Positions 55,525 through 58,668 of a stretch of 64,000 nt of DNA are shown piece after piece. The position numbers were made by a program, and so were the translations under genes. Origin of the DNA: Thermococcus onnurineus NA1 (GTDB lineage Archaea > Methanobacteriota_B > Thermococci > Thermococcales > Thermococcaceae); NCBI RefSeq assembly GCF_000018365.1, contig NC_011529.1, forward strand, positions 682,001 to 746,000, written 5' to 3'. Below the pieces are notes generated by a model. It did not search any database. It was given only the letters and a program-made list of their open reading frames with translations, and was not told the origin of the DNA. How positions within the stretch are numbered: position 1 is the first letter of the stretch; each line of letters starts with the position of its first letter.

Positions 55525-55583
55525 CGGGCGATGGCGTCCGCCCGGGCTTCGAGCCGAACCGCCCGTTTTGGGCTGATGACGCC
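55525..55583 (+). promoter_or_regulatory. Fluoride riboswitch (crcB motif)
   Basis: The sequence carries the consensus GGGCGATGG...CGCCC...GAACCGCCC...GGGCTGATGACGCC. P1 is CGGGCG 55525-55530 with CGCCCG 55539-55544. P3 is GCCC 55561-55564 with GGGC 55570-55573. The pseudoknot is GGCGTC 55533-55538 with GACGCC 55578-55583, as in the fluoride aptamer. An extra GGCT-TCG-AGCC hairpin (55545-55555) is inserted between P1 and the AAC linker. A GTTTTTAACC TATA element at about 55497-55506 precedes it by the right distance. The genuine fluoride channel gene crcB lies 2.3 kb downstream in the same direction, which supports the call. Confidence 0.88.
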
Positions 55584-55611
55584 TGTTCTCTGCCAGATAT
55601 AGCAGGAGGCG
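55580..55611 (+). promoter_or_regulatory. Anti-ribosome-binding-site hairpin (riboswitch expression platform)
   Basis: CGCCT (55580-55584), the 3' strand of the aptamer pseudoknot, can instead pair with AGGCG (55607-55611), with an inner stem CTGC (55590-55593)/GCAG (55602-55605). This hairpin would hide the GGAGG site at 55605-55609 before ATG 55617. Fluoride-bound pseudoknot and hairpin exclude each other, predicting translation only with fluoride. The pairing is seen in the sequence; the switching is inference. Confidence 0.6.
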
Positions 55612-55616
55612 GTAGA

Positions 55617-56474
55617 ATGGGCTCGAAGCTGAGTGAGATTGGCAGGTTTATTAACGCTGATGCGCTCATCAGCTACGTTGAGGAGAGGCGCCACGAGGAC
55701 GGCGGCTACTGCTTCGTGAGCGTTTTGGACGAGACCAACATTAACGACACGTACTACGCGGTAAAGATTTACAACCTGCTCGGGCTCGAAATTCCCGAGA
55801 GGGAGAAGACCGTGGAGTTCCTTTACACTTCCGCCCAGATGCAGACCGCGGTGGTGGCCGTTGCAATGGCCATCGAGGCACTGTCATTACTGGGGGCGAG
55901 AGATCTGGCAAGGGAAAAGCTGGACCTGCTCTTCTCCAAATACAACCCGCTAGAAGGGAAGTTCGCCGTTGGCCTCGGCGGAAGTGAGGAGTTCGGAACG
56001 GCTACTCCCCTGGAGGCAACCTACTGGGCCACGAGGGCGCTGGCGGCCGTGGGTTACCGTATGGACGGCGAGACCAGGGAAAGGATACGCAAGTTTGTGA
56101 TGGGGTTCCGCAAGGGAGACGGCTTCGGGGTGAAGGGGGCCACCACGACCATGACCTACCAGGCCCTCTTCACCCTCAAGGGCCTTGGCTATGCCGTCCC
56201 AGACACCACCCACTTCTACAGATGCGAGGTCTACGGCGGCTTTACCGAGGTGCCCTACTCGCTGCCCCCCTATCTAGAACCGACGTTCTATGCCATAAGA
56301 GGTCTCAGTCTGCTCGGCAAGAGGGCGCGCTACATAAGAGACCACATCAGGTTCATCAGAGCACTGCAGAACCCCAACGGAGGCTTCAGGCGCTCGCTGG
56401 AGATGGGCATATCGAACTTCCAGAACACGTACAGAGCCGTGAAAGCCCTCGACGAACTCCTGAAGTGGTACTGA
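55617..56474 (+). CDS. Prenyltransferase/terpenoid-cyclase-repeat protein, first gene behind the fluoride riboswitch
   Basis: 285 aa of alpha/alpha-toroid repeats like those of prenyltransferase beta subunits and squalene cyclases: RFINADALISYVEERRHEDG, LDETNINDTYYAVKIYNLLG, TATPLEATYWATRALAAVGY, FVMGFRKGDGFGVKGATTTM, FIRALQNPNGGFRRSLEMG. The Gly-Gly-aromatic and NDTYYAV repeat turns are kept. The DxDD cyclase motif is absent and a clear Asp-x-Cys-His zinc set is not seen, so enzymatic activity is uncertain. GGAGG precedes the ATG. It overlaps the next gene as TGATG. Confidence 0.8.
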   Translation: MGSKLSEIGRFINADALISYVEERRHEDGGYCFVSVLDETNINDTYYAVKIYNLLGLEIPEREKTVEFLYTSAQMQTAVVAVAMAIEALSLLGARDLAREKLDLLFSKYNPLEGKFAVGLGGSEEFGTATPLEATYWATRALAAVGYRMDGETRERIRKFVMGFRKGDGFGVKGATTTMTYQALFTLKGLGYAVPDTTHFYRCEVYGGFTEVPYSLPPYLEPTFYAIRGLSLLGKRARYIRDHIRFIRALQNPNGGFRRSLEMGISNFQNTYRAVKALDELLKWY

Positions 56475-57166
56475 TGGATATCGTGGGGATATATCTCAGG
56501 GAGGCTATGAAGGAGGGCTGCCCAGTCTGCAGGATACTCGGGGAGTACGAGGAGTCTGAAATCAATACAATCCTCTACGAGCACGTGAACGACCCCACTG
56601 TTAGGGTTAAGTTCAAGGAGAGCCTTGGTCTCTGCACCTACCACGCCTGGAAAACCCTCAAAACGGCCTACTCGAACCCACTGCTTGGCCCGCTGGGAGT
56701 GGCAATAATCTACGAGCACATGCTTTCAACTTATATCAAAATCCTCGAAAGCTGGGAGAAAGTCAAGGAAGGCGAGTGCTTCCTGTGCCTTCTCGTGGAA
56801 GAAAAGGAAAAGGACACGGTGGAGGCTATCACGGAGAAGATTGAGGAGCTCCTTCCCGTTTATGAGTCATCGGAGGCAATCCTCTGCAAAAGGCACCACG
56901 AGATGATAGACTCAATCCTCAGGAAGAAAAATCCCCAGAGCGCGGAGAGGCTCAGAAAAGTCCAGCTGGAGAAGCTGAAGAAGCTCAGGGAAAGGATGAA
57001 CTCTTTCATAAACAAGTTCGACTATAAGGCACTCGAAAGGCCCACAAGAGAAGAGGTTTCATCCCTCCCAATGACTATAGAGGCACTTAAAGGGCTCGAA
57101 AACGGAGCTACCCTAAGGAAGAAGGAACGAAAAAAGCGGACAAGGGGAGTTTTGCTATGGAGATAG
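56474..57166 (+). CDS. DUF6062-like four-motif Cys/His protein in the fluoride-riboswitch operon
   Basis: 230 aa. Two similar halves each give a CxxC and a Cys-x-x-His pair: GCPVCRILGEYE with LCTYHAW, and ECFLCLLVEE with LCKRHHE. They probably bind two Zn ions or Fe-S clusters. The C-terminus is basic (LRKKERKKRTRG). The pattern fits the DUF6062 family (assignment from memory). It is translationally coupled to the genes before and after it. Confidence 0.7.
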   Translation: MDIVGIYLREAMKEGCPVCRILGEYEESEINTILYEHVNDPTVRVKFKESLGLCTYHAWKTLKTAYSNPLLGPLGVAIIYEHMLSTYIKILESWEKVKEGECFLCLLVEEKEKDTVEAITEKIEELLPVYESSEAILCKRHHEMIDSILRKKNPQSAERLRKVQLEKLKKLRERMNSFINKFDYKALERPTREEVSSLPMTIEALKGLENGATLRKKERKKRTRGVLLWR

Positions 57167-57456
57167 AAGTAAGCCCCGAGGAGCTGGCTGAGATACGGAA
57201 GAACCAACGAGAGATAGAGAGACGCTTCAGAGACCTAGAAGGGCTTGAGAGAACCCTAAAAGCCCTCAAGTTGCGGTTCCTCTTGGAGCAGAGGGCCAGG
57301 CTGGAGAAGAGGCTCAGCGAGATGAGGCAGAACTATCGCGAGATGCTCGAGTTCGAAGATAAGGCAAAGAGGGATAAGGAGTTTTTGATGGCATTTAGGA
57401 AGGAACTCAGCGATGAGAACAAAAACCTTAGAAAGGAGCTAGGGGAAGAGAGATGA
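57157..57456 (+). CDS. Coiled-coil protein in the fluoride-riboswitch operon
   Basis: 99 aa, almost wholly charged helix (ELAEIRKNQREIERRFRDLE, FLLEQRARLEKRLSEMRQNY, KELSDENKNLRKELGEE). It overlaps the previous gene by 10 nt and the next by 4 nt. No family is recognised; probably a structural or oligomerising partner of its neighbours. Confidence 0.7.
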   Translation: MEIEVSPEELAEIRKNQREIERRFRDLEGLERTLKALKLRFLLEQRARLEKRLSEMRQNYREMLEFEDKAKRDKEFLMAFRKELSDENKNLRKELGEER

Positions 57457-57878
57457 AAATAACCGTTAAGCCGCGGAGGGGCTGGCGGAGGGTTACCTTC
57501 AGGGTTCCAGATGAGACCCTCGAAAGGATAGAGGAACTGTGCGAGCGTTACGGCTTCAGGTTGGATGAGGCTCTGAGGATAATACTCCTCCATGACTACG
57601 TGGATGATGGAGTCGATGTCGACGAGAAAGCCTTTGAAAAGCTAGAGAAGGGGATAGATGCTCTTGAAAAGGAGCTGTATAAGCTTGAAGGGAAGTGGTC
57701 GTCCCTGAAGTTCCGCTCCTATTATATAGCACTCGACAACCAGAACCTCGGAATCCAGCTCTCCGGAATGATGGCGGAGAACAAGAGACTGAGAAAGGTA
57801 CTCGGGAAGGAGGAGAGAGACTTCTCGGAAGTTAAGGAGCTGATTCACTACTACATGGCCTTCGGGGACAAGGATTAA
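57453..57878 (+). CDS. Ribbon-helix-helix-like protein with coiled-coil tail
   Basis: 141 aa. The N-terminus WRRVTFRVPDETLERIEELC and RYGFRLDEALRIILLHDYV looks like a ribbon-helix-helix DNA-binding unit (strand, helix, helix), followed by a coiled coil to the end. It could be a regulator of the cluster (inference). It overlaps the preceding gene by ATGA. Confidence 0.65.
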   Translation: MKITVKPRRGWRRVTFRVPDETLERIEELCERYGFRLDEALRIILLHDYVDDGVDVDEKAFEKLEKGIDALEKELYKLEGKWSSLKFRSYYIALDNQNLGIQLSGMMAENKRLRKVLGKEERDFSEVKELIHYYMAFGDKD

Positions 57879-57911
57879 AAGAGACCCTACACATGGTTCG
57901 GCGGTGATGGA

Positions 57912-58283
57912 ATGAACGGCAGGATAGCGGTTGCGATAGCACTCGGCGGTGCGCTCGGAGCATTGGCACGCTTTTACATCTCGGGAATACTGCCTGTTTA
58001 TAAGGACTTTCCTGTTGGAACCCTGCTCGTCAACAGCATAGCCAGCTTCATCCTTGGCTACATCTACGGTCTCCTTTTCTGGGGAATCGATGTTCCGGCA
58101 GACTGGAGGGCTTTCTTCGGAACAGGATTCTGTGGTGCCTTGAGCACATTCTCGACGTTCTCCTACGAGACCTTTTCGCTCTTACGTGAAAGGGAGTATT
58201 TCCTCGCCGCCCTAAACATCTCGGCAAACGTTATAATCACGGTAAGCCTAGTTTTCATCGGATTCATTCTCGCAAGGAGGTGA
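57912..58283 (+). CDS. crcB: Fluoride channel CrcB/Fluc
   Basis: 123 aa, four membrane helices: [57 protein letters not shown] (the TM3 break and phenylalanine track that carry the ions) and a final helix ending ILARR. It works as a dual-topology dimer that lets fluoride leave the cell. GGTGATGGA precedes the ATG. The 33-nt gap upstream holds an ATTAAAAG element, so an internal promoter beside the riboswitch-controlled transcript is possible. Confidence 0.95.
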
Positions 58284-58287
58284 GCTT

Positions 58288-58668
58288 ATGGTTGAGGTCG
58301 AGCACTGGAACACGCTTTGTCTCAGAATCTACATAGGTGAGAGCGACCGCTGGGAGGGGAAACCGCTCTACAAGGCCATAGTGGAGAAGCTCCTCGAGAT
58401 GGGAATAGCAGGAGCAACCGTTTACCGCGGTATTTACGGATTCGGGAAGAAGAGCAGAATTCACTCCACAGATGTAATGAGGCTTTCTACTGATTTGCCC
58501 ATCATTATCGAGGTCGTGGACAGGGGATACAAGATTGAAAAGGCCATCCACGAGATTAAGCCCATGATAAAGGACGGCATGATAACTGTCGAGCCTACGA
58601 TAGTTGTATGGGTTGGCACAAGAGAGGAAGTGAAGAGGTTTGAGGACGATGCCGTGAGGGAGCTCTGA
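58288..58668 (+). CDS. DUF190 protein (CrcB-associated)
   Basis: 126 aa ferredoxin-like/PII-like fold: [80 protein letters not shown]190 genes commonly accompany crcB. It starts 4 nt after crcB. It may gate or regulate the channel; this is not proven. Confidence 0.9.

Follow-up and report, generated by a model that had tools for sequence, protein, structure and literature searches.

Across Thermococcales, the predicted fluoride riboswitch of Thermococcus onnurineus NA1 tracks not the exporter gene crcB but a gene for a toroid-fold protein, here called P1, judging from gene neighbourhoods: P1 adjoins the aptamer even where crcB has moved, been lost or been cut off. P1 is the likely direct target of the riboswitch. 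On balance we lean slightly towards seeing it as a Thermococcaceae-specific fluoride-response protein, neither an exporter nor one of the known fluoride-riboswitch genes, placed under a riboswitch that acquired, within its aptamer, an insert base-pairing with the coding sequence of the very gene it controls. A translational ON switch for P1, put forward as a whole explanation that takes in coupled expression of the genes P2–P4 behind it and a role of P1 in fluoride tolerance, seems to us rather probable.

The aptamer and the genes behind it

A covariance-model search of the T. onnurineus NA1 genome found a single match to the Rfam fluoride riboswitch model RF01734, located at 55518–55592 on the forward strand of the window (the whole analysed stretch of 64,000 nucleotides) and scoring 50.7 bits against a gathering score of 34 (E 4e-11). 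The original prediction had read a crcB-motif aptamer with its pseudoknot here and proposed an Infernal search with the Rfam model as a check; the score lies above the cut-off rather than below it, and the reading holds. The pseudoknot strands, GGCGTC (55533–55538) and GACGCC (55578–55583), pair in every one of 70 leaders (100%), with a compensatory UA-to-CG change at one pair in 6 of the 70. Over all aptamer pairings, 99.2% of cells are paired and five pairs have double changes, a result that none of 500 shuffles reached. A TATA-like element, TTTTTAA (55498–55504), was spotted by eye some 24 nt ahead of where the aptamer starts.

Six genes follow on the same strand. P1 (55617–56474) adjoins the aptamer and matches PF00432 (Prenyltrans, E 2e-13). 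P2 (56474–57166) is a DUF6062 protein (PF19538, E 2.5e-17, 63.6 against a cut-off of 27 bits), P3 (57157–57456) is a coiled coil with no family match above cut-off, and P4 (57453–57878) has an RHH-like N terminus and a coiled-coil tail, the former a borderline match to PF01402 (RHH_1) over 20 residues at 21.0 against a cut-off of 20.5 bits (E 3e-4). The Fluc fluoride exporter gene crcB (57912–58283; TIGR00494, E 5e-28, 97.8 against 80.45 bits) comes 33 nt after P4, and a DUF190 gene of PII-like fold (58288–58668; PF02641, E 1e-38) comes after crcB. P1 and P2 overlap by 1 nt, P2 and P3 by 10 nt, and P3 and P4 by 4 nt. The genes are those proposed earlier, namely a terpenoid-cyclase-repeat protein, a double Cys/His protein, a coiled coil, an RHH-like protein with a tail, crcB and DUF190. 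Elsewhere in the window, 46608–48178 is occupied by a CRISPR array whose 24 repeats match CRISPR-DR6.

Distribution of P1 and its neighbours in Thermococcales

The comparison set comprised 94 Thermococcales genomes, 74 of them of good quality, and about 77 loci were compared. The aptamer was present in 88 of the 94 genomes and P1 in 90, including all 74 of good quality. In all loci examined but two, those of genomes G080, where P1 is broken, and G012, P1 is the gene immediately after the aptamer, so that the predicted placement of the aptamer directly before a gene other than crcB is a pattern kept across Thermococcales. In no locus does the riboswitch directly precede crcB, since P1 always intervenes. 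Looked for outside Thermococcaceae, P1 was absent from 21 further genomes belonging to the phylum, and a search of the genomes of 84,980 species returned 25 relatives, all titled Thermococcus, Thermococcaceae, Thermococcales or Thermococci. In the G012 locus (L121), from a genome that we take to be Pyrococcus and that has no crcB, the 5′ part of the aptamer is gone; its 3′ part, the start region of P1 and P1 itself remain intact, so P1 would not require a full aptamer or crcB.

In 17 of the approximately 77 genomes, crcB is off the riboswitch transcript, being located elsewhere, lost or disrupted, or cut off by an antisense gene. It is not near P1 in seven loci of presumed Pyrococcus genomes and in one Thermococcus genome (G020). 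No fluoride riboswitch was found at the displaced crcB in the seven genomes where the gene was located elsewhere (six Pyrococcus and G020). Only a broken fragment of crcB is left in G011, and the gene is absent from G012. An antisense gene separates P4 or P1 from crcB in eight loci, all from one group of Thermococcus genomes; in L048 (4876–6165), the one tested, Pfam identifies it as a Na+/H+ exchanger, and similar antisense insertions are seen in L052, L066, L067, L069, L074 and L081, with a fragment in L059.

The other members of the cluster come and go. P2 was found in 47 of the 74 good genomes and, in Thermococcales, always behind P1. The full order P1-P2-P3-P4-crcB occurs in 42 of 77 loci and direct P1-crcB adjacency in 12, the remainder being mixed; P1 stands without P2–P4 in 16 of 77 loci and with P4 or P3-P4 but without P2 in 10, and P2 occurs without P3-P4 in at least one locus. 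In this distribution P1 alone is universal, and P2, P3 and P4 are an optional module; at most, P1 would be a core with P2–P4 as accessories. The comparison of gene neighbourhoods across Thermococcales that the original prediction had called for did not find its genes mostly away from the riboswitch. The association of P1 with the riboswitch stood, the two exceptions apart; the idea of a set four-gene block did not.

Complementarity between the aptamer and the start of P1

Relative to RF01734, the window aptamer contains an 11-nt insertion region, inside which falls the insert GCTTCGAGCC (55546–55555). This insert is complementary to GGCTCGAAGC (55620–55629), that is, to P1 codons 2–4 (GGC TCG AAG) plus one base, which form the coding-sequence arm of a proposed OFF helix. 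Taken together with AACCGCC, it can pair with both the ribosome-binding site and the first P1 codons. The ribosome-binding site of P1, GGAGGCGGT (55605–55613), has a GGAGG nearly invariant in the 70 leaders, and in the minimum free energy (MFE) structure its GGCGGT (55608–55613) takes ACCGCC of the aptamer core (55558–55563) as an alternative partner; 93% of cells are paired between ACCGCC and the ribosome-binding site in the 70 leaders. Most leaders folded together with the start, the window's included, gave the nested OFF helix as the MFE fold (insert with codons 2–4 plus ACCGCC with GGCGGU), under an energy model that ignores the pseudoknot and growth at 80–90 °C. In 63 of 74 genomes the duplex between insert and ORF is at least as strong as –22 kcal/mol. 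Base-pairing between an aptamer and the coding part of its target gene is the new point proposed here.

The first codons of P1 are constrained at synonymous positions. Third-base identity is 0.96 at Gly2 and 0.92 at Ser3, the top two values among 91 conserved degenerate P1 codons (mean 0.47), and codons 2–4 are the P1 triplet with the lowest codon entropy. The constraint ends at codon 5, where third-base identity is 0.55, and no comparable run of constrained start codons was found at P2, P4, crcB or DUF190. A changed ORF start accompanies an altered insert in 5 of 11 genomes and an intact insert in none of 63 (Fisher p 3e-5, a value that ignores relatedness), six genomes with an altered insert thus keeping the standard start. 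A tree of P1, crcB and DUF190 built without the start codons gave five changes of the ORF start and nine of the insert. No compensatory double changes above those in shuffles were found in the OFF helix among the 70 leaders, where it is nearly invariant or shows wobble changes only. The case for the OFF helix is therefore made by complementarity, synonymous constraint and joint loss, and not by covariation.

In the mechanism that we propose, without fluoride the insert would pair with P1 codons 2–4 and ACCGCC with the ribosome-binding site, enclosing the start codon in a long nested helix. Fluoride would stabilise the pseudoknot and stem P3, which both need the same ACCGCC region, and the stabilised aptamer would free the ribosome-binding site, although the helix between insert and ORF could in principle coexist with a folded aptamer. 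P2–P4 overlap P1 and one another, and their expression would rise with that of P1 through co-transcription and translational coupling; crcB would often be expressed separately. We further infer that P1 may act as a fluoride-tolerance factor beside export.

The insert might instead be a stable hairpin that aids folding of the aptamer in the heat, the similarity to the P1 start arising otherwise, for instance through selection for efficient initiation. It does fold on itself (GGCU-UCG-AGCC, with UUCG loops in some genomes), two sister genomes have swapped it for an unrelated hairpin and retained the ORF start, and the lack of compensatory changes in the OFF helix fits as well. We nevertheless hold this explanation to be unlikely: ten contiguous Watson-Crick pairs join insert and P1 start, a match equalled at only two others of the 1822 ATG sites in the window, loss of the insert and change of the ORF start go together, and efficient initiation does not usually go with GC-rich first codons.

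The proposed pairing of the aptamer with P1 codons also bears on the idea that this is ordinary crcB regulation through one long transcript, with P1–P4 carried along in the leader part of a crcB operon. Such an operon would agree with crcB lying on the same strand within 3 kb in most loci, and at so short a distance from P4 in the window. The idea is distinctly improbable in view of that pairing, of the genomes described above in which crcB is found elsewhere without a riboswitch, is missing or broken or stands behind the antisense gene, and of the T. kodakarensis crcB, for which the published account of this locus gives a start site of its own after TK0513 (PMC4247193). As to the four proteins themselves, the original prediction had them form one complex made on fluoride exposure, to which the overlap of the genes in T. 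onnurineus and the confinement of P2, within Thermococcales, to sites behind P1 would be suited. A complex of all four is not indicated, because P2–P4 are optional in the combinations counted above and P3-P4 is found as a second pair elsewhere; we regard it as very doubtful. The translational switch acting on P1 is the reading that we prefer.

The P1–P4 proteins, a second fluoride riboswitch and known systems

P1 has 83 residues invariant in 74 sequences. Its AlphaFold2 model (pLDDT 92, with an invariant loop, 121–127, disordered) has the alpha/alpha toroid fold of the RabGGTase beta subunit and squalene-hopene cyclase (Foldseek E 1e-6 to 1e-4, TM up to ~0.7; E 1e-6 for squalene-hopene cyclase), a fold common to protein prenyltransferase beta subunits and squalene-hopene cyclases. 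Unlike these enzymes, P1 is without the DxDD motif of class II terpene cyclases (0 of 76 sequences) and without a conserved zinc-binding D-x-C motif of prenyltransferase beta subunits (1 of 76). A role as terpene cyclase or prenyltransferase was rejected, since the fold fits but the catalytic motifs are missing; P1 probably has a conserved pocket at its centre and would be an enzyme or a binding protein. In P2, C16, C19, C54 and H57 and C102, C105, C138 and H141 are invariant in 47 sequences, giving two sets of CxxC plus CxxH that are probably two metal sites; no PDB match was found for its fold. The tail of P4 is related to small stand-alone coiled-coil proteins (hhalign E 5e-8 to 5e-11), and P4 paralogues are spread across Thermococcales. 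A P3-P4-like pair stands in an apparent operon with a DNA-glycosylase-like gene (L143, 4924–5679; L145, 4356–5064). PADLOC returned no match for P1, P3 or P4 as defence genes and weak matches only for P2.

About 15 Thermococcales genomes contain a second, shorter fluoride aptamer, which, in genomes read far enough, heads an operon of NADH-dehydrogenase-like, Complex1_49kDa, Oxidored_q6 and antiporter subunits; by its gene content this operon would be of the membrane hydrogenase or formate-hydrogenlyase type. Loci with it, from Thermococcus genomes, include L057, L077, L079, L083, L084, L087, L089, L091, L094, L097, L100, L103 and L105, with the riboswitch near 2501 in reading orientation (near 902 in L083). 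In 12 of 13 MFE folds, GACGCC and CCCGGAA near the start codon are paired with GGCGUC and UUCCGGG from the 5′ half of this aptamer; as modelled, the hydrogenase-operon switch appears to have reached the same design with different strands. The small coiled-coil family related to the P4 tail adjoins both fluoride-riboswitch loci in some genomes (L077, 2190–2426, and L091, 2199–2435; between P4 and crcB in L082, L113, L129 and L131). Its use as a marker of both riboswitches is weakened by its occurrence elsewhere, without a riboswitch, in six genomes; at least once the displaced gene lies beside leuS, its neighbour at the second riboswitch too.

Fluoride tolerance is mostly explained by export. 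That the sensor follows P1 even where the exporter has moved points to a second arm of the fluoride response in Thermococcales, and the pairing of aptamer and codons, if true, would be a clear archaeal riboswitch mechanism that can be tested in a genetically tractable species. A Thermococcales fluoride riboswitch that induces genes reportedly serves as a fluoride-responsive archaeal expression system for hyperthermophiles. In T. kodakarensis, a riboswitch is used for fluoride-dependent expression (PMC7137780). Should the pairing hold, fusing a reporter without the first P1 codons would remove part of the switch, which concerns users of such tools.

In G024, presumably T. kodakarensis KOD1, the locus reads riboswitch-P1-crcB, without the P2–P4 of the T. 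onnurineus NA1 window. The 2014 account of the T. kodakarensis locus places the crcB RNA before TK0513 and not before crcB, giving the same succession of fluoride aptamer, non-crcB gene and crcB as at P1 loci; its treatment of this RNA gives no role for TK0513, no order-wide comparison and no expression platform (PMC4247193). TK0513 is very probably P1, because the G024 locus has the order riboswitch-P1-crcB. The bacterial fluoride riboswitches with an intrinsic terminator studied in PMC11077080 have an aptamer and pseudoknot identical in kind to those of Thermococcales. Those bacterial riboswitches control transcription, whereas the Thermococcales switch is proposed to act on the ribosome-binding site and first codons of the gene, which it would reach through the aptamer insert.
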